A stretch of DNA of 64,000 bases, taken from NCBI GenBank assembly GCA_021324155.1, contig JAJPJQ010000020.1, positions 1-64,000 on the forward strand. The letters run 5' to 3'. The position numbers and the translations under genes are program-made. Under the pieces are notes generated by a model that was not told the origin of the DNA, made no database searches, and saw only the letters and a list, made by a program, of their open reading frames with translations. This document shows positions 45,489 through 58,280 of this stretch, piece by piece. Origin of the DNA: Pseudomonadota bacterium (GTDB lineage Bacteria; Desulfobacterota; Binatia; UBA9968). Each line of letters begins with the position of its first letter. Within the stretch, counting starts at the first letter, position 1.

Positions 45489-46793
45489 ATGTTGATGGCC
45501 GACGAAAATGAAATTTTAGTCCGCACCAACCAGGGAACGCCGGGAGGCGAATGGATGCGGCGCTACTGGCAGCCGGTCGCGTTGAGCGAGGAGCTGCCCG
45601 AGAATGGCGCGCCGCTCGCCGCGAAAATGCTAGGCGAAGATCTGGTGCTCTTTCGCAGCGAAAGCGGCGCCGTCGGCTTGCTAGGACGGCGCTGCGCGCA
45701 CCGCGGCGCCGATCTTAGCCTCGGCCGGCTCGAAGACGGCGGCCTGCGCTGTCTCTATCACGGCTGGCTTTATGGCGTGGACGGGAGATGTCTGGAGCAG
45801 CCGGCCGAGCCCGAGGGCAGCGACTTCAAGAACAAGATTCGCCATCGCTCGTATCCCTGCAAAGAGCTGGGCGGAATTATTTTCACTTACATGGGTCCGG
45901 GCGAGGCGCCGGTGTTCCCGCTCTACGAGCCGCTGATCGCGCCGGAAAATCATCGCTACGCCTACAAGGTGCTGCACGAGTGCAATTACCTGCAGGCGCA
46001 CGAAGGCGAGATCGATCCGGCGCATTTGTCCTATCTGCACCGGCGGACCAACCAGCCTGCGTGGCGCCAGCGCGCGATCAAAGGCTCCGACGGCGTCCAG
46101 CCGATGGCCATGTATCGCAAGGACGCCGCGCCGCGCATCGAGGTCGAGGAAACCGACTTCGGCGTGCGCGTCTATTCCATCCGGCGCGCAGACGACGAGA
46201 AGATTTATTTACGGCTGACGAATTCGATTTTTCCGAACGTGAGCACGATTATCGGTCCGATGGCGGGCGACGGTTACGACATCAACTGGCACGTGCCGAT
46301 CGACGACTACAATCACTGGAAATACGTCGTGATCTTCCGCCGCAGCGGCCCTCTGGAGGCGCGCGACTGGAAAAACATCCATTCGCTGCGGCCGGAGATG
46401 ACGCCGAACTATCGGCTCGTGCGCAACGCCGCGAATAATTATCTCCAGGACCGTGAGTCGATGAAAAACGGAAATTTCAGCGGGCTGGGCACGAACAACC
46501 TGCCCCAGGACGCCGCGATGGTGCAAAGCCCGGGCGCGATCCAGAATCGCGACGAAGAGCACCTCGGCACAACGGACAAGGCGATCATCGCCAACCGCCG
46601 CGCATTTCTAAAAGCGATCAAACAGGTCGAGGCGGGAGGGGAGGCGCCGCACGTCATCCGCGATCCCGCGAAGGCGCGCGTGCCGGAGATCGCCGTCATC
46701 TCGGAGATCGTCGGCGGCTCGGAAGACTGGCGCAGCTACTGGAAGAAAATCAAACGCATCGACGACGAAGGCTATTCGAGCGCGCACCACTAA
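45489..46793 (+). CDS. Rieske non-haem iron oxygenase, alpha subunit
   Basis: A 434-aa ring-hydroxylating/demethylating oxygenase of the phthalate/vanillate-oxygenase class. The Rieske [2Fe-2S] ligands are in RRCAHRGADLS and LRCLYHGWLYG. The mononuclear iron site is within EGEIDPAHLSYLHR (Asp/His/His). No reductase or beta subunit gene adjoins, so electron-transfer partners must lie elsewhere. It is coupled to the preceding ferric-type binding protein; the same pairing recurs at 57.1-59.3 kb. Its stop overlaps the stop of the convergent gene. Confidence 0.9.
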   Translation: MLMADENEILVRTNQGTPGGEWMRRYWQPVALSEELPENGAPLAAKMLGEDLVLFRSESGAVGLLGRRCAHRGADLSLGRLEDGGLRCLYHGWLYGVDGRCLEQPAEPEGSDFKNKIRHRSYPCKELGGIIFTYMGPGEAPVFPLYEPLIAPENHRYAYKVLHECNYLQAHEGEIDPAHLSYLHRRTNQPAWRQRAIKGSDGVQPMAMYRKDAAPRIEVEETDFGVRVYSIRRADDEKIYLRLTNSIFPNVSTIIGPMAGDGYDINWHVPIDDYNHWKYVVIFRRSGPLEARDWKNIHSLRPEMTPNYRLVRNAANNYLQDRESMKNGNFSGLGTNNLPQDAAMVQSPGAIQNRDEEHLGTTDKAIIANRRAFLKAIKQVEAGGEAPHVIRDPAKARVPEIAVISEIVGGSEDWRSYWKKIKRIDDEGYSSAHH

Positions 46794-50233: not shown

Positions 50234-50239
50234 AAAAAT

Positions 50240-50263
50240 AGGGGCGGTTCGCGAACCGCCCCT
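50240..50263. repeat. 24-bp perfect palindrome
   Basis: AGGGGCGGTTCG followed by its exact reverse complement CGAACCGCCCCT, starting 7 nt upstream of the AbrB-type start codon. Such short GC-rich palindromes with TA or AT edges are common as dispersed REP-like or MITE-like units. It is the longest perfect palindrome I noticed in the window. Confidence 0.8.
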
Positions 50264-50299
50264 ACGCAGTTATGCAGAAACTGATTCTCGGTAGTTCTA

Positions 50300-50387: not shown

Positions 50388-51470
50388 TTACCGTGACGCC
50401 GAAGCCTGGCCCGGATGCAAGATGAGCTTCTGCACGCGCCAGTTCAACACCTCGGCGACGTAGAGCTCGTTTTCCGAGGGGCAGGCCATTTCGTGTATCC
50501 AGCCGAATTGCTTGAGCTGCTTGCCGGATTCCCCGAGTACGCCGAGGATCTTGCCGTCGAGCGTCAGCTTATAGACGCGGCCGGGAAACGCGTCGGCGCT
50601 GTAAAGCACCTGCCGCTGACCCGGCGTGATGCAGATCGCCCACGGCGCGCCAGGAGCCTGCGTTCCTTTCACGTCCTCGGCCGGCATGTTGCCGATCGCC
50701 GGACGCGTCGCGTTACGGTCGAACGGAACCTTGATTACGATCTCGCGCAGAAACTTGCCATCGCCGTCGAAGACCTGAATGCGACCGTTGCCGCGATCGC
50801 CGACGTAGATATTTCCCTGTGCGTCGGCGGCAATCGTGTGCGGGGTATTGAATTCGCCCGGCTTATCGCCGCGCTCGCCCCACGATTTTAACCAGCGGCC
50901 GTTCTTGTCGACTTTGCCGATCCGTGAGTTGATATAGCCGTCGCTGAAGAAAGCATTGCCCGCCGGGTCCCATGCGACATCCGTCGGCTGCCGGAAGCGG
51001 CCGTCCTCGTGTCTCGGCGGCGGCGGCGGCCGCTTGTGCGGCGCCGCCTCGTCGGAGGCTTCCTGGCGCCGGCCGAATACCATCTGCACGCGTCCCTCGG
51101 GATCGAATTTGACGATCATGTCGGTGCCTTTGTCGACCGTCCAGATGTTATCGTCCTTGTCGACGCGCACGGTGTGGGCGAAACCGAACGCGTAGAGGTT
51201 TTTACCGATCTCGCGCAGGAACTTGCCGTCCGGCGCGAACTCCAGAAGCTGCGACGCTGCGGCGCCGAAGTTGGGTCCAGTGGTGTTGCCGCGCGAGAAG
51301 ACGAATATGTGCTTCTTGGAATTTACCGCGACGCCCGCCGCCTCGCCGAGATACATGTTCGCCGGCATTTTCACCGCGTTCGGCGGCGAATCGAACGCGA
51401 TCGTCGGGACGTCCTGCGCGAACGCCGGAGCGCTCAACGCCGCCAAAACTGCGATCAGCCAAAATTTCAT
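50388..51470 (-). CDS. NHL-repeat beta-propeller protein, secreted
   Basis: A 360-aa secreted six-bladed propeller with signal peptide (cleavage after APAFAQ). Blades show the NHL pattern: GKFLREIGKNLYAFGFAH, GRFRQPTDVAWDPAGNAFFSDGYINSRI, FNTPHTIAADAQGNIYVGDRGNGRI. This resembles peptidyl-hydroxyglycine amidating lyase-like and SMP-30-like proteins. Whether it is an enzyme or binding scaffold is unclear. It lies in the minus-strand block with the two haem-motif propeller lipoproteins. Confidence 0.87.
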   Translation of the reverse strand: MKFWLIAVLAALSAPAFAQDVPTIAFDSPPNAVKMPANMYLGEAAGVAVNSKKHIFVFSRGNTTGPNFGAAASQLLEFAPDGKFLREIGKNLYAFGFAHTVRVDKDDNIWTVDKGTDMIVKFDPEGRVQMVFGRRQEASDEAAPHKRPPPPPRHEDGRFRQPTDVAWDPAGNAFFSDGYINSRIGKVDKNGRWLKSWGERGDKPGEFNTPHTIAADAQGNIYVGDRGNGRIQVFDGDGKFLREIVIKVPFDRNATRPAIGNMPAEDVKGTQAPGAPWAICITPGQRQVLYSADAFPGRVYKLTLDGKILGVLGESGKQLKQFGWIHEMACPSENELYVAEVLNWRVQKLILHPGQASASR

Positions 51471-51512: not shown

Positions 51513-52511
51513 TTATCTGGCTTTGATGCCGAGTTCTCTTTGCGCCTCTCTCAATGCAGTCAGATCTTCGACTTCGGTGAGCGGCACGTCGCGCTCGACT
51601 TTGCCCAATCGCTTTGATTCCTCGACGATGAGCCGAAGACCGTCCTCGGGAATGCTTCCGTCTTCGTGATACGCCTTCACTAGGCTGTCGTACGATGCGG
51701 CGGCGGTTTCTTTGTCGAGCTTCAGCCATTCCATGAGGAACGAAAGCGCGCCGTCGCGGTTGCGATGGATGTAGCGGTTGGCCTTGACGCCCGCCACGAT
51801 GACGCGCTTAATCTCGTCGGGTTTTTCCTTGATTTTTTTCGTCGTGGCGACGAGGCCGCTTGCCGGATAGTTGAAAAGATCGAGGGCGCGCGCGAGCAGG
51901 ACCAAACCCAGCTTGGCGGCGAAGAACTCGAACGGCGTCGAGCCCATCGCCGCGGCGGTGAGACCCTGCTGCACGGAAGCGAGCCGCGATTCGAAAAGAC
52001 CCGTGGCGAGAAATCTAACGTCTTTGTCGGGGTCGAGGCGGAAATGCTTGACGATCAAGCGCCCGCCGACCTCGAGCGGGCTGCCGTAGGTATTGATCGC
52101 GATCGCTTTGCCCTTGAGGTCGGCGACCGATTTATATTCCGGCCGCGCGACCAGCACGAACGGCGCGCCAGTGGTGAATCCGGCGACCGCCTTCACGGCG
52201 ACGCCGCGGATCGTGGCGGCGACGCCGGGGCCGATCGCGGTGTAATAGTCGATCTCTCCGGCGGTGATCGCCGCGAGAGCGACGGGCGGTGTCATGCGGA
52301 TGAATTCCGCTTGCAGTCCTTCCTCTTTGAAGAAGCCGCGCTTCTCTCCGAGCGGAAGCGGCAGGAATTGTACGGCGAGCTCGGGAAAGCCGATACGAAT
52401 GCGATCCGCCGCTTCGGCCGATGCGGCGAAAAGAAAAGCGGCGAGCGCGGCGCAAAGCGAGGCGCCGGATGCGAGGCATGAGGCGCGAGTAAGAAAAAAA
52501 GAATCCGTCAC
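51513..52511 (-). CDS. ABC-type substrate-binding protein, NMT1-like
   Basis: A 332-aa periplasmic protein with family segments RIRIGFPELAVQF, ALAAITAGEIDYYTAIGPG and DLKGKAIAINTYGSP. The start is GTG 52511. The first 12-20 residues (TRASCLASGAS) are encoded by a copy of the GC-rich CTCGCGCCTCATGCCTC repeat, so the signal peptide is a mixture of repeat-derived and hydrophobic native sequence. No permease adjoins. It lies between the NHL gene and the first haem-motif lipoprotein. Confidence 0.84.
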   Translation of the reverse strand: MTDSFFLTRASCLASGASLCAALAAFLFAASAEAADRIRIGFPELAVQFLPLPLGEKRGFFKEEGLQAEFIRMTPPVALAAITAGEIDYYTAIGPGVAATIRGVAVKAVAGFTTGAPFVLVARPEYKSVADLKGKAIAINTYGSPLEVGGRLIVKHFRLDPDKDVRFLATGLFESRLASVQQGLTAAAMGSTPFEFFAAKLGLVLLARALDLFNYPASGLVATTKKIKEKPDEIKRVIVAGVKANRYIHRNRDGALSFLMEWLKLDKETAAASYDSLVKAYHEDGSIPEDGLRLIVEESKRLGKVERDVPLTEVEDLTALREAQRELGIKAR

Positions 52512-52555: not shown

Positions 52556-54772
52556 CTAATGCGCGAGCGGGTCGGGACGCAACTGAAAATGCACCGCGAA
52601 GGGCTGCATGCCTTTGCCGCCTTCCTTGAGCCAGGGGGCGCGGTCGCCGCTGGTGGTCCATAGACCGCGGCCTTTCCAGCCGGCGTTCGGGTCGTCGATG
52701 CGCCCGTCGAAACCTTTGGCGTAAAAGCCGAGCGGGTAGGGGACCCGTAATACGATCATCTTGCCGTCTTTCATCGCGATCAATCCGTCGTTCTCGTTTC
52801 CCGTCGACATCGGGACGTTCTCGCCCAGGCCGAAGGTGTTGTGCTGATCGACCCAGGTGTAGTAGCTCGACTCGGCGCTGTTGTCGCCGACGCCTTCGAA
52901 TCCCGGTCCGGGATATTGGTAGATCGTCCATCCTTCCGGGCAATGATTGCCGGTCGCCTTCGGTCCGTTGAGCGGCCCTTTGCATTTGCGCCGGTCGAAG
53001 CTGCCGAGATGTCCGCTCGCGAGCGATACCCACACGACGCCGTTTCTGTCGATGTCGCCGCCGCGCACGCCGAAACCGGGCGCCGGCACGTTGTAGAGCT
53101 CCGAGAGCGCCGTCTCCGACGGATTCGGACCGGGCACGACGCGGACGACGCCCCCGGGATTGCCGCGCACAGTGCCCCAGATCGAGCCGTCGACCGGGCT
53201 CGGCATAATGGCGTAGAAGTTAGCGACGATGCGCTTGTCCTTCGCCGGATCGACCGGCTGATTCGGCTCGACGTAATCGTCGCGCTTCCCGTTGCCGTTA
53301 GTGTCGATGATAAACGGCGTCCAGCCCTGGGCCTTCGCCGAGTCGCCGGTCTCGTCGAATACTTTGGTATTCACCCAGCCGAGCACCGGCCCGCCGCCGC
53401 TCGTCCAGAGCGTCTCGTTCGCGTCGTAGCCGAACTGCAAATGGTGCGTCTGGAAGCAGGTGTCGACGAAGCTGTATTTCATCGTCTTCGGATCGAGCAT
53501 CGTCACGGCGCGGTTGGTGCGCTCGAGCGGAAACACTTTCGCCGAAGGATGGTTCGAGCCTTTCTTGCAGAAGTCCGGATTATTCGGGCCGCGCACGCTC
53601 GCGGCGAACCAGACACGGCCTTTGCCGTCGAACATGCCGTTGTGGTTATTGACCTTGGTGTCCCAGACTTTCTCGGGTCCCCAGTAAGCCGAAGGCTGCA
53701 TGGGCTGCGCGCTCGCCGCGTGCCCCGGGCCGAGGGCCTCGGGCGTGTTCGCGTCGCGCACGGACGCCTTGAAGGTCTTCGCGGTGTTCTTCACCGGATC
53801 GAGAATCGGGATGAGATCGCTGCTGTACTCGGCCGACCCGAAAAGCGGGCCATAGGCATTCACGGTAGGCTTACGGCGGTCGGACGCGATCAAGTCGTGA
53901 AGGTAGTGCTTCGCGTCCATCCAGTCCCATTGGGTGACGACGATATTCCGCTCGACGCCCTGCGGGCGTGGCGGCGTCGCGTGCGGCAGCTCGCCCTTCG
54001 CGATGCGGTCGGTCCAGTCGGCGAAATATTTTATCGGCGCTGCGCCCATCTCTTTCACCATCGTGTTGAACATCGACTCGCCCGACTGTCCGGACTGGAT
54101 GCGCCGGAACCAACCCTCTTCCGCATTCGCGAATTTATCGTACGGATACGGAACGTTGACGGGAAACGTCCGAGTCGAGAGCTGGCCGATCTGATGGCAG
54201 CCGATGCAGCCGTTGGACTTCAGCGAGTTGAGCCAGTCGTTGCGCGTGAGCTTCGCGGGAATATTGCTTTTGCCGCCGAATTCCGCGGCATCGGGTATCT
54301 TGAGCATCGAGTACCAATAGATCGCGGGATAATACTGCGCCGCGGCGGCGCGGTTCGGCGCCGCTACGGCGGTCAGGTTAACGATTTTTCCCGGCGACGC
54401 TTTTTTCTTGGGCGAATCGACGAGGCCGTAGCCGCGCACCCAGAGATCGTAATCCGCTTTCGGAAGATCGGGGACGACGTAGCGTCCCTGATCGTCGGTT
54501 ACGACGATGCGCGCGAAGCGCGTCGGCAGCTCGCGCGTCTCGGCGATGACCCATACGCCCGCTTCGGGGCCGTTCGGTCCGGTAACGACGCCTCCGATGT
54601 CGTTTTCGTCTATCTGGACGGAAGCGCTGCGCTCCGGCGCGGCACGATCTTTCATGTCGGCGGCGCACGCGACGATGACAGCAGCAACGAGGAAAAAGAC
54701 GAAAGGCGCGAGACGCAAACAGGCGTTAGCTGTTAGGTGTGAGGCCTGAGGTGAGAACGACCTTTTAGGCAT
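52556..54772 (-). CDS. Haem-motif beta-propeller lipoprotein 1
   Basis: A 738-aa exported protein with a lipobox-like AVIVAC near residue 35. A carboxypeptidase-regulatory-like (transthyretin-fold) domain follows (GGVVTGPNGPEAGVWVIAETRE to VRGYGLVDSPK). A single c-type haem site is CIGCH (about residue 186). The rest is a large propeller-like region with repeats such as HNGMFDGKGRVWFAA, DPKTMKYSFVDTCF and GVRGGDIDRNGVVWVSLASGHLGSFDRRKCKG. It is about 70% identical by eye to the next gene. The first 20 residues are encoded by a GC-rich repeat. Likely an outer-membrane or periplasmic electron-transfer/binding protein; enzyme activity is unknown. Confidence 0.8.
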   Translation of the reverse strand: MPKRSFSPQASHLTANACLRLAPFVFFLVAAVIVACAADMKDRAAPERSASVQIDENDIGGVVTGPNGPEAGVWVIAETRELPTRFARIVVTDDQGRYVVPDLPKADYDLWVRGYGLVDSPKKKASPGKIVNLTAVAAPNRAAAAQYYPAIYWYSMLKIPDAAEFGGKSNIPAKLTRNDWLNSLKSNGCIGCHQIGQLSTRTFPVNVPYPYDKFANAEEGWFRRIQSGQSGESMFNTMVKEMGAAPIKYFADWTDRIAKGELPHATPPRPQGVERNIVVTQWDWMDAKHYLHDLIASDRRKPTVNAYGPLFGSAEYSSDLIPILDPVKNTAKTFKASVRDANTPEALGPGHAASAQPMQPSAYWGPEKVWDTKVNNHNGMFDGKGRVWFAASVRGPNNPDFCKKGSNHPSAKVFPLERTNRAVTMLDPKTMKYSFVDTCFQTHHLQFGYDANETLWTSGGGPVLGWVNTKVFDETGDSAKAQGWTPFIIDTNGNGKRDDYVEPNQPVDPAKDKRIVANFYAIMPSPVDGSIWGTVRGNPGGVVRVVPGPNPSETALSELYNVPAPGFGVRGGDIDRNGVVWVSLASGHLGSFDRRKCKGPLNGPKATGNHCPEGWTIYQYPGPGFEGVGDNSAESSYYTWVDQHNTFGLGENVPMSTGNENDGLIAMKDGKMIVLRVPYPLGFYAKGFDGRIDDPNAGWKGRGLWTTSGDRAPWLKEGGKGMQPFAVHFQLRPDPLAH

Positions 54773-54830
54773 ATTTCTGTCCTCCTGCTTTTCCTGCTCA
54801 CGCCTATCGCTTTACGGCCTCACTGCTTCT
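54721..54830. repeat. CTCAC/GCCTCAC repeat pair across the start of lipoprotein 1
   Basis: Left arm (aggcgttagctgttaggtgt... onward) encodes residues 5-19 of lipoprotein 1. The right arm, CTGCTCACGCC...GGCCTCACTGC, occupies the gap to the next gene. Same family as the repeats at 50300 and 52455. Confidence 0.55.
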
Positions 54831-56962
54831 CAGTGCGCCAGCGGGTCGGGCCGCAGTTGGAAGTGCACGGCCATCGGCTTGGAGCCTTTGCCGTTTTCCA
54901 TGAGCCACGGCGCGCGGTCGCCCGTCGAGCTCCATAAGCCGCGGCCTTTCCAGCCCGCCTTGGGATCGTCGATGCGGCCGTCGAAGCCTTTAGCGTAAAA
55001 GCCCATCGGGTAGGGGACGCGCAGAACGATCATCTTGCCATCTTTCATCGCGATGAGACCCTGATTCAGGTTTCCCGTCGACATCGGCACGTCGTCGCCG
55101 AGGCCGAAGGTATTGTGCTGATCGACCCAGGTGTAATAGCTCGCCTCCGCGCTGTTGTCGCCGATGCCTTCGAAGCCGGGACCGGGATATTGGTAGAAGC
55201 TCCAGCCTTCGGGGCAATGATCGCCCGTCGCCTTGGGACCGTTCAATGGACCTTTGCACTTGCGCCGGTCGAAGCTCGCGAGATGTCCGCTCGCGAGCGA
55301 CGCCCACACGACGCCCTGCCTATCGATGTCTGCGCCGCGGATGCCGAAGCCGGGCAGTGGGATATTATAAATTTCGGCCAGCGCCGTCTCCGAGGGATTT
55401 GATCCCGGCGCGATGCGCACGACCGCGCCGGGGAATGTGCGCACCGATCCCCAGATCGAGCCGTCCGCGGGACTGGGCATCACGGCATAAAAGCCGGCGA
55501 CGATGCGCTTGTCCTTCGTCGGATCGACCGGCTGGTTGGGCTCGACGTAGGCGTCGCGTTTGCCGTTGCCGTTGGTGTCGAGAATCATCGGCGTCCAGCC
55601 CTGCGATTTCGCCGCGTCGCCGGTCTCGTCGAATTTTTTCATATCGAGCCATCCGACGACCTGTCCGCCGCCGCTCGTCCAGAGCACATCGTTCGCGCCG
55701 AACTGCAAATGATGTGTGCCGAAACAGGTGTCGACGAACGTATGCTTCATGGTCTTGGGATCGAGCATCGATAGATGCCGGTTACTGCGCTCGACCGGGA
55801 AGGCTTTCGCCGACGGATGGTCCGAGCCTTTTTTGCAGAAGGCCGGATTGTTGGAGCCGCGCACAGCCGCCGCGAACCAGACGCGGCCTTTGCGGTCGAA
55901 CATTCCGTTATGATTGTTCGCCTTGCTCGTCCATACCCGCTCGGTGCCCCAGTATGGCGACGGCTGCAAAGGACCTTCCTCCATCGCCATCGGCGTATCG
56001 GGGTCGCGCACCGGCGTCTGGAAGTTTTTGACGGAATTCGTCTTGGGATCGAGGATTGGAATGATGTCGACGCTGAGCTCGGTCGACCCGTAAACCGGGC
56101 CGTAGGCGTTGACCGTCGGGAAGCGGCGATCGGAGGCGATCAGATCGTGGAGATAATGCTTCTCGTCGAGCCAGTCCCACGTCGTGACGACGATGTTGCG
56201 CTCGAGCCCCTGCGGACGTGGCGGCTTGCTGTGCGGCAGCTCGCCCTTGGCGATGCGATCGGTCCAGTCGGCGAGATAGGGAATATTCGCCGTGCCGAGC
56301 TCCTTGGCGGCGGTCGTCAGCATCGGAACGCCGCCTTGTCCCGATTGGATGCGGCGGAACCACGCCTCTTCGGAGTTGGCGAACTTGCCGAGAGGAAACG
56401 GCACATTCTTGGGAAAAGTGCGCATCGCCTCGGTCCCCTGCGAATGGCAGTTCGCGCAGCCGTTCGACTTCATTAAATTGAGGTATTCGTTCTGCGTCAT
56501 CTTCTCCGGCAACTTCGCCTTATCCGGAATCTTCATCATCGAATACCAATAGATCGAAGGATAATAATGCGCCGCCGCCGGCTCGTTCGGAGCTTTCACG
56601 GCTGTGAGATTGACGATCTTTCCCGGCGCGGACTTGATCTTCGGCGAATCGACGAGGCCGTAGCCGCGCACCCACACATCGTAGTTCGCGCTCGGCAGAT
56701 CGGGGACGACGTAGCGTCCTTGATCGTCGGTGACGACGATACGCGCGAAGCGCGTCGGCAACTCGCGCGTCTCGGCGATCACCCAGACGCCGGCTTCCGG
56801 CCCGTTCGGTCCGGTAACGACGCCGCCGATGTCGTCGCCGTCGATTTGCAGCGACGCCGCGCGCCGCGGCGCGCCTTTATCGCTCATTTCGCCTGCGCAC
56901 GCGGCGATGATAGCGGCGACGAGTGCGGCCGCCGGCCATATCCAGGAAAGGTTTCGTTTCAT
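54830..56962 (-). CDS. Haem-motif beta-propeller lipoprotein 2
   Basis: A 710-aa paralogue of lipoprotein 1, in tandem. The lipobox is IIAACAG at about residue 22, the N-terminal regulatory-like domain carries the same GPNGPEAGVWVIAETRE segment, and the haem motif is CANCH (about residue 162). Propeller segments include HNGMFDRKGRVWFAA, DPKTMKHTFVDTCFGTHH and GIRGADIDRQGVVWASLASGH. Its N-terminus is about 14 residues shorter than that of lipoprotein 1 and has no repeat-derived part, so it shows the ancestral form. The tandem arrangement implies duplication. It probably works with the NHL protein and the Rieske oxygenase to its right. Confidence 0.8.
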   Translation of the reverse strand: MKRNLSWIWPAAALVAAIIAACAGEMSDKGAPRRAASLQIDGDDIGGVVTGPNGPEAGVWVIAETRELPTRFARIVVTDDQGRYVVPDLPSANYDVWVRGYGLVDSPKIKSAPGKIVNLTAVKAPNEPAAAHYYPSIYWYSMMKIPDKAKLPEKMTQNEYLNLMKSNGCANCHSQGTEAMRTFPKNVPFPLGKFANSEEAWFRRIQSGQGGVPMLTTAAKELGTANIPYLADWTDRIAKGELPHSKPPRPQGLERNIVVTTWDWLDEKHYLHDLIASDRRFPTVNAYGPVYGSTELSVDIIPILDPKTNSVKNFQTPVRDPDTPMAMEEGPLQPSPYWGTERVWTSKANNHNGMFDRKGRVWFAAAVRGSNNPAFCKKGSDHPSAKAFPVERSNRHLSMLDPKTMKHTFVDTCFGTHHLQFGANDVLWTSGGGQVVGWLDMKKFDETGDAAKSQGWTPMILDTNGNGKRDAYVEPNQPVDPTKDKRIVAGFYAVMPSPADGSIWGSVRTFPGAVVRIAPGSNPSETALAEIYNIPLPGFGIRGADIDRQGVVWASLASGHLASFDRRKCKGPLNGPKATGDHCPEGWSFYQYPGPGFEGIGDNSAEASYYTWVDQHNTFGLGDDVPMSTGNLNQGLIAMKDGKMIVLRVPYPMGFYAKGFDGRIDDPKAGWKGRGLWSSTGDRAPWLMENGKGSKPMAVHFQLRPDPLAH

Positions 56963-57107: not shown

Positions 57108-58280
57108 ATGCTGAGCCGGGAAGAGAACGAGTTGCTGACGCGGATCGGCCCGGGGACGCCGGCCGGGCGGCTGCTGCGTCGTTACTGGCACGTCGTCGGC
57201 GTCGCCGCCGAACTCGATAAGGAGAAGCCGAAAAAGCGGGTAAAGATTTTAGGCGAGGACCTCGTCCTCTATCGCGACGGCCGCGGCGGCTACGGGCTGG
57301 TCGGCGAGCATTGCTCGCATCGCGGCGCTTCGCTGTACTACGGTTTCGTCGAAGACGACGGCATCCGCTGCGCCTATCATGGATGGAAGTACGACGCGTG
57401 CGGCAATTGCATCGATCAGCCGTTCGAGAGTCCCGAGGTTCGCTACAAAGAGGAAATCAAACACCGCGCCTATCCGGTGGTAAAATCCGCCGGGCTTTTG
57501 TTCGCTTATCTCGGCCCGCAGGAGAAAAAACCGGTGCTGCCGCGCTGGGACATCCTCGCGCGCGACGACGGCGTCAAGAAGATCGAGGTTCCGCAAGTCC
57601 TCGACTGCAACTGGCTGCAGGCGATGGAGAATTCAGTTGATCCCGTCCACACGTATTATCTTCATTCGCATACGCTTAAGCTTAAAGGCGATCCCGATCA
57701 CGTCCCGTTCCACTATCAGAAGCTCAATAAGATCGACTTCGAGCTGGTCGTTTATCCGAGTTGGGCGGGAATCCAGAAGCAGCGCTTCTTCGCGGGCGAA
57801 GAAGCGAAGGTCGAGACGCCGCATCCGCTGATCTTCCCGAACATTCTGTTCGTTCCTGTGCGCGCCGGCTACGCGATGCATTTCCGCACGCCGATCGACG
57901 ACGCGCACACGCAGATTTATCAGTTCAGGTTCCGCCCGACCGACGACGGAAAACCGGCGGCCGATAACGGCGATCCGCCGGTCGCCTTCTTACGCACGAA
58001 GGACGAGCGCGGCGAATTTCACATGAACGATTTCACCAGCCAGGACCACATGGCGTGGGAGACGCAGGGACCGCTCGCCGACCGGCCCGCCGAGCACCTG
58101 GGCGAATCGGACCGCGGCATTCTCATGTTCCGCAAGCTGCTGCGCGATCAGATCCGCGCGGTCGAGAGCGGCGGCGATCCGATCGGCCTCAACATGGACG
58201 CGAAGAAAGACGAAGTGATTAAACTCATCCCCGAAGGGTACACGGCCTTTGAGGCCGCTCAGGCGGCGATGGAAACGTAA
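57108..58280 (+). CDS. Rieske non-haem iron oxygenase, alpha subunit
   Basis: A 390-aa oxygenase of the same class as the gene at 45489 but clearly divergent. Rieske ligands are in EHCSHRGASLYYG and IRCAYHGWKYD; the mononuclear iron site is NSVDPVHTYYLHSH. It begins with the familiar LSREENELLTRIGPGTP. A consensus promoter lies upstream. The ferric-type binding protein 58300-59316 follows 19 nt later, so oxygenase and binding protein form a unit, in reverse order to the copy at 44.4-46.8 kb. Reductase and substrate unknown. Confidence 0.91.
   Translation: MLSREENELLTRIGPGTPAGRLLRRYWHVVGVAAELDKEKPKKRVKILGEDLVLYRDGRGGYGLVGEHCSHRGASLYYGFVEDDGIRCAYHGWKYDACGNCIDQPFESPEVRYKEEIKHRAYPVVKSAGLLFAYLGPQEKKPVLPRWDILARDDGVKKIEVPQVLDCNWLQAMENSVDPVHTYYLHSHTLKLKGDPDHVPFHYQKLNKIDFELVVYPSWAGIQKQRFFAGEEAKVETPHPLIFPNILFVPVRAGYAMHFRTPIDDAHTQIYQFRFRPTDDGKPAADNGDPPVAFLRTKDERGEFHMNDFTSQDHMAWETQGPLADRPAEHLGESDRGILMFRKLLRDQIRAVESGGDPIGLNMDAKKDEVIKLIPEGYTAFEAAQAAMET

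Follow-up and report, generated by a model that had tools for sequence, protein, structure and literature searches.

Two tandem genes, A and B, encode exported proteins that join a transthyretin-like (TTR-like) domain, a single c-type haem motif and a propeller resembling that of the streptogramin lyase Vgb in one chain. This architecture is real and conserved; its parts are known, while the combination, and a gene cassette that accompanies some of its members, are new. We propose, at about even odds (probability roughly 0.5), that A and B are periplasmic mono-haem c oxidoreductases in which the propeller oxidises a small molecule and electrons pass toward the respiratory chain. The pair lies in the window, the whole 64,000-nucleotide stretch of DNA that was analysed, and the host bacterium probably lives in soil.

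Gene A (54830..56962, minus strand, 710 aa) is the first gene of a probable operon. Gene B (52556..54772, minus strand, 738 aa) starts 57 bp past the stop of A and is followed after 44 bp by a gene for an NMT1-type periplasmic substrate-binding protein (51513..52511, minus strand) and, 42 bp past that, by a gene for an exported NHL propeller protein (50388..51470, minus strand). A terminator-like site with a 12-pair stem, a 4-base loop and a T run (50238..50265, minus strand) would close the unit; it has the longest stem among the sites listed for the region, in which 6 were found against 8.8 expected in shuffles. The order A, B, binding protein, NHL on one strand, the short gaps and the terminator-like stem indicate that these are probably a single four-gene unit. 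The NHL protein is similar to ScyF, a protein of scytonemin biosynthesis, at a level below the NCBIfam cut-off (97.9 bits, cut-off 350). Outside this unit, a LigXa_C-like Rieske oxygenase gene (57108..58280, plus strand) diverges from A at a distance of 145 bp, so that the NHL, binding-protein and Rieske neighbours named in the first-pass annotation are all in place. A second Rieske oxygenase, at 45489-46793, has a nearly full-length LigXa_C match (E 3e-41) and is followed by a family 3 binding-protein gene on the opposite strand.

That annotation had described two paralogues of 710 to 738 aa with a lipobox, a TTR-like domain, one CxxCH each and a propeller, and the open reading frames, motifs and model agree with it. 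Signal sequences and lipoboxes (IAAC in A, IVAC in B) are recognised by reading of the sequence, and both proteins are probably lipid-anchored. The TTR-like (carboxypeptidase regulatory) domain occupies residues 45-121 of A (56600..56830) and 59-121 of B (54410..54598, as matched by Pfam), on the minus strand like every feature of the two genes given below. Neither protein reaches the cut-off of any Pfam or NCBIfam model: NCBIfam gives no model at E ≤ 1, and Pfam gives sub-cut-off TTR and cytochrome models. CarboxypepD_reg scores 22.8 bits in A and 21.1 bits in B against a cut-off of 32.3, and it is found at E ≤ 0.1 in all 41 members of the alignment of LONG, as we call the family of A and B. 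A search of PDB sequences with B alone and with the LONG profile gave no match at E ≤ 1.

Structure prediction, proposed earlier as a check, returned a propeller and a TTR-like fold. The AlphaFold2 model of A, built from the 41-sequence alignment, has a pLDDT of 86.9 and a pTM of 0.88, and the N-terminal part modelled alone has a pLDDT of 87.5. The latter matches the carboxypeptidase D/N regulatory domains at Z 9.2-10.0, with carboxypeptidase D 3mn8 at Z 10.0 (rmsd 1.5, 74 aligned). Another match of the TTR domain in this N-terminal model (window 56177-56836) is 6hif_Y, which belongs to the hydrazine dehydrogenase complex as one of its small chains; its Z of 7.9 is in the range of common arrangements, and the match hints that TTR modules may accompany haem enzymes. 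The propeller of A spans residues 252-705 (54848..56209) and has seven blades in the model; that of B is placed at about residues 272-733 (52574..53959), approximate limits set by comparison with A. Residues 256-704 of A align best with Vgb 2z2n (Z 23.2, rmsd 2.6, 287 aligned); YncE is the next type of protein, at Z 19.6, with many WD40 propellers close behind.

Between these two parts stand the haem-attachment motifs CANCH of A (residues 169-173, 56444..56458) and CIGCH of B (residues 189-193, 54194..54208). A CxxCH arises by chance in 31 of 20,000 shuffled sequences of A and in 18 of 20,000 of B. Conservation, the model and a weak, sub-cut-off match to Pfam Cytochrome_CBB3 (E 0.093) point to a mono-haem c domain at residues 150-240 of A (56243..56515), with Met214 as candidate distal ligand. 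In the model, helices flank the CxxCH and Met214 in an order that fits a class I cytochrome c; the CxxCH loop is among its least confident parts (residues 170-172, pLDDT < 50). Pfam detects a cytochrome at E ≤ 0.1 in two of the 41 alignment members, and the fold-match list for the N-terminal part is occupied by matches to the TTR domain, not to the cytochrome part.

To place these features in their family, a contig scan of genomes was used, which yielded 193 related stretches, of which 80 were kept. The 141 LONG open reading frames came down to 113 unique ones when those with identical last 150 residues were merged, and the 106 longer than 650 aa were counted; the set was drawn from non-overlapping longest open reading frames and leaves out LONG genes under a longer opposite-strand frame, such as that of L178. 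CxxCH conservation in homologues had been set beforehand as one of the points on which the reading could fail, and the motif is present in all 106 proteins. It occurs exactly once in all 95 full-length matches from the first loci (some places counted twice), and among the seven shorter members outside the count it is present in six, the seventh being a broken copy without the N-terminal part. Met214 is found in 105 of the 106, the remaining one having an X. His272, His351, His417 and His418 are each present in 106 of 106, as are Cys376, 413, 569 and 583, which make two invariant Cys pairs; His560 is in 103. A loose lipobox pattern occurs in 23 of 106 proteins, and the lipobox was accordingly rejected as a family trait.

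Pairwise alignment of A and B over 700 columns gives 75.6% identity. A tree of 80 LONG proteins (FastTree) places A beside L023 and, at full support, L024 and L025, while the row nearest B is L026; as their nearest rows differ, the duplication is not recent. Relatives of A are found in 22 of 58 genomes (the window genome and 57 relatives). The LONG profile matches 27 of 247 Acidobacteriota genomes, 12 of 200 in the order of G058 (taken as Burkholderiales) and 4 of 249 in the Microvirga order, where named Microvirga strains carry LONG genes. More broadly, the bins or genomes with LONG carry the labels Binatota, Rokubacteria, Acidobacteriota and Pseudomonadota, and a plasmid survey yielded one record with LONG, from Microvirga ossetica. 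At L103:6995-9078, a second LONG copy is split across two frames and is either broken or mis-assembled.

Searching relatives with Pfam Vgb_lyase revealed a second group, SHORT, of 554-635 aa, which has a TTR domain, a haem motif and a Vgb propeller, the same three domains in the same order as LONG. A comparison of the two profiles gives a probability of 99.4 (E 3e-21) over 421 columns covering A residues 45-566, so that homology begins in the TTR domain, runs through the haem domain and takes in roughly the first five blades. The A/B pair is thus a long, divergent clade of a wider TTR, haem c and Vgb-propeller architecture; LONG proteins are longer, and SHORT has neither their two pairs of invariant Cys nor their additional invariant His. 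Nine aligned SHORT proteins have CxxCH in eight cases and CxxxCH in one; the SHORT protein at L152:5351-7030 reads CxxxCH (CAVGCH), which, if real, is an uncommon spacing for haem attachment. The window genome contains two LONG and four SHORT genes. Ten LONG-bearing genomes gave a strong SHORT match (> 190 bits) in six cases, weak matches only in three, which look like the LONG gene itself, and none in one. In G060, the Acidobacteriota genome of L085, the SHORT profile has 32 matches, which by reading of the matches are about twenty separate genes, a large paralogous expansion.

The SHORT proteins bring the architecture close to Vgb in sequence as well as fold: their profile matches Vgb 2qc5 at E 5e-56, and three of the four from the window genome are over both Pfam cut-offs, the fourth being under that of Vgb_lyase (43.9 against 50 bits). 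Together with Vgb being the best fold match of A, this would suit a Vgb-like lyase that cleaves bonds by elimination, with a structural or regulatory haem domain. We consider this unlikely for A and B, which have no match to the Pfam Vgb model PF24684 at E ≤ 1. We take the catalytic residues of Vgb to be those of blades 6 and 7, and in the predicted secondary structure the invariant His of LONG fall in other blades. His272 stands just before or at the start of the strand taken to open blade 1, as do His351 for blade 2 and His417/418 for blade 3; at the starts of blades 6 and 7 there is no invariant His, the residues being Tyr/Trp/Asp and Tyr/Lys, respectively. In Vgb, substrate and Mg are bound by polar residues of blades 6 and 7 (PMC8916777).

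The LONG relatives from several phyla are 62-86% identical to A, and among them the His, Tyr, Arg and Asp predicted to line the channel face do not vary, as would be expected of an active site. The start of the first (inner) strand of a propeller blade lies at one face of the central channel, and by this placement His272, His351 and His417/418 would cluster there. SHORT proteins are without the blade 2-3 His of LONG, so any metal site formed by these residues is not general to the architecture. A tight binding site could be conserved in the same manner, and the propeller might do no chemistry but capture a ligand or protein, with the c haem as an electron carrier or sensor. Binding without catalysis is common among propellers, the usual role of TTR-like domains is docking, and binding-protein genes adjoin some LONG genes (NMT1-type, 12 of 111 outside the window; TctC-type, 14 of 113), all of which speak for capture. 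Set against the invariance of the channel face, such a role is, in our judgement, rather unlikely.

Neighbouring genes were counted within 7 kb of LONG by BLASTP (E ≤ 1e-6, 45% coverage), a setting that more distant Rieske proteins would escape; 53 of the 113 LONG genes have less than 5 kb on at least one side. The first-pass annotation had looked to co-occurrence with Rieske oxygenases, and the divergent gene beside A and the second one at 45489-46793 would make a redox partnership of A and B with these enzymes conceivable. Outside the window, one of 111 LONG genes has a homologue of the Rieske protein at 57108 nearby and another has one of the 45489 protein, which gives 2 of 111 for both and 1 of 58 for LONG genes with at least 5 kb on both flanks. 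The Rieske oxygenases are therefore local neighbours, and the partnership was rejected on these counts. No signal peptide is seen in either Rieske sequence of the window, which would put these proteins across the membrane from A and B and makes the pairing most improbable.

The NHL homologue and the window-type NMT1 protein are each near 6 of these 111 LONG genes, and both were rejected as fixed partners. Any of three NMT1 references brings the count to that 12 of 111; the NMT1 and TctC families are large, and no enrichment is claimed for either. A CoA-transferase, an SDR and a molybdopterin enzyme are other occasional neighbours, and the recurrence of these with TctC and NMT1 proteins would fit catabolism of small organic acids.

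Clustering of the genes neighbouring LONG identified a recurring cassette, made up of TM4, a second and smaller membrane protein TM3, a small exported TTR-like protein, and either an amidohydrolase (Amidohydro_3) or a binding protein of the NMT1 type. TM4 has about 165 aa, in which His21, 34, 110 and 157 are invariant (9 sequences). Nothing in Pfam matches it below E 0.08, nothing in NCBIfam at E ≤ 1 and no PDB sequence at E ≤ 10. A hydropathy scan of three TM4 proteins flagged four segments in one and three in two, with not all four His inside flagged segments; the same check missed the start of one of two amidohydrolases tested. From its sequence, TM4 could be a four-helix, di-haem cytochrome b.

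TM4 lies within 7 kb of 14 of the 113 LONG genes, and of 7 of the 60 that have 5 kb or more on each side. Four of the 200 Burkholderiales genomes have TM4, all four are among the 12 with LONG (the same genome draw, by handle), and in each TM4 adjoins LONG. By our own arithmetic the chance of this overlap would be 8e-6 if genomes were independent, which relatives are not, and 8 of the 12 have LONG without a TM4 match. Among the 247 Acidobacteriota genomes, TM4 occurs in one, about 1.3 kb from LONG on the same strand, and 26 of 27 LONG-bearing genomes have no TM4 match. One of the 249 genomes of the Microvirga order has a partial TM4 match, 52 positions long. LONG has no match in that genome, and neither a LONG nor a SHORT gene lies in the 18 kb that were read there, which speaks against a strict TM4 link. 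TM4 is present in 5 of the 58 genomes around the window genome: in G012 and G024 it is directly beside SHORT, and in G009 and G020 it is on the LONG-bearing contig, 4-10 kb away.

TM4 was found in 20 of 24 chosen loci, most of which were already known to hold LONG or cassette genes, and all 20 have LONG (17) or SHORT (4; one locus has both). In 10 of these loci LONG is collinear with TM4 and less than 120 bp away. The two genes share a contig in opposite orientations at L102, L104 and L214 (about 3, 4.5 and 10 kb apart, respectively), are separated by a 1.2-kb gap at L032, by other genes at L053 and by an open reading frame at L218. At L178 the cassette stands between a LONG and a SHORT gene, and the LONG loci L171, L176 and L179 are without TM4. 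The association appears on several branches of the LONG tree, yet the cassette goes with a minority of LONG and SHORT genes. Bins L074, L088 and L090, titled Bordetella parapertussis or Chitinophaga pinensis, carry LONG and the cassette; in the tree they fall among Betaproteobacteria bins, and the titles are doubtful. No TM4 match was found in the neighbourhood of the window A/B pair. The window genome, the fifth of those with TM4, has a complete cassette elsewhere (G000:C47, L215:12544-19224), with a binding protein, the small TTR protein, TM3, TM4 and two tandem SHORT genes, a Kelch gene standing between TM4 and the SHORT pair.

Taken as periplasmic oxidoreductases, A and B would work as follows. 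The TTR-like domain may serve in docking or folding. A small organic molecule would be bound and oxidised by the Vgb-like propeller on that face of its central channel where LONG has the invariant His272, His351 and His417/418, a possible metal site, along with Tyr, Arg and Asp. Electrons would pass to the c haem, ligated by His173 and probably Met214, and from there into the respiratory chain; where the cassette is present, they may reach quinone through TM4 as a di-haem cytochrome b-like membrane protein. A and B in the window would need a separate acceptor, since the cassette is elsewhere in the genome, beside two SHORT relatives. Of the envelope oxidoreductase or ligand-capture system suggested earlier, the oxidoreductase fits, as the proteins are exported, have an invariant CxxCH and a candidate Met214 and, in some lineages, adjoin TM4; the tie to Rieske oxygenases is not conserved.

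A bolder proposal, which we consider less likely than not, is that TTR-cytochrome c-Vgb proteins are respiratory dehydrogenases of the periplasm and constitute a class not yet described. Here a Vgb-type propeller would have been remade as a redox catalyst, with a three-His metal site in blades 1-3 of the LONG clade, and haem c would link it to a novel di-haem b quinone reductase of four helices, the class having expanded to about twenty copies in at least one acidobacterium. If LONG proteins are respiratory dehydrogenases, they would represent a nameless route of small-molecule oxidation outside the membrane in widespread, mostly uncultured bacteria, and the named Microvirga strains make the question testable. 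The cassette would add a candidate membrane cytochrome, one for which the databases searched hold no relative. A literature search found no description of the TTR, haem c and Vgb-propeller architecture, a weak absence because subscription literature was thinly covered.

Periplasmic enzymes that join a cytochrome c domain to a catalytic propeller, as LONG would, are known from the quinohaemoprotein dehydrogenases and cytochrome cd1 nitrite reductase, whose propellers are eight-bladed and hold PQQ or haem d1. A and B could be a quinohaemoprotein dehydrogenase of the known kind, with PQQ or a similar cofactor in a diverged propeller: the division of labour between domains is the same, the proteins are exported, and the haem region of a SHORT protein weakly matches quinohaemoprotein amine dehydrogenase alpha at E 0.014, far below the cut-off. 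We regard this as quite unlikely, given that the closest fold is Vgb, that neither A nor B matches the quinohaemoprotein dehydrogenase or cytochrome cd1 families in Pfam or NCBIfam at E ≤ 1, and that no PQQ family is found there for A or B or among the 41 alignment members. Vgb itself, the virginiamycin or streptogramin B lyase (PF24684; 2z2n, 2qc5), has the propeller fold in common with A (Z 23.2) and, unlike A and B, is a single domain without haem. The passages on CylK in PMC8916777 describe an enzyme that differs from LONG in its calcium-binding second domain and in forming carbon-carbon bonds, with no haem mentioned in them. CylK resembles LONG, as proposed here, in that a Vgb-like propeller is fused to another domain and carries out new chemistry.
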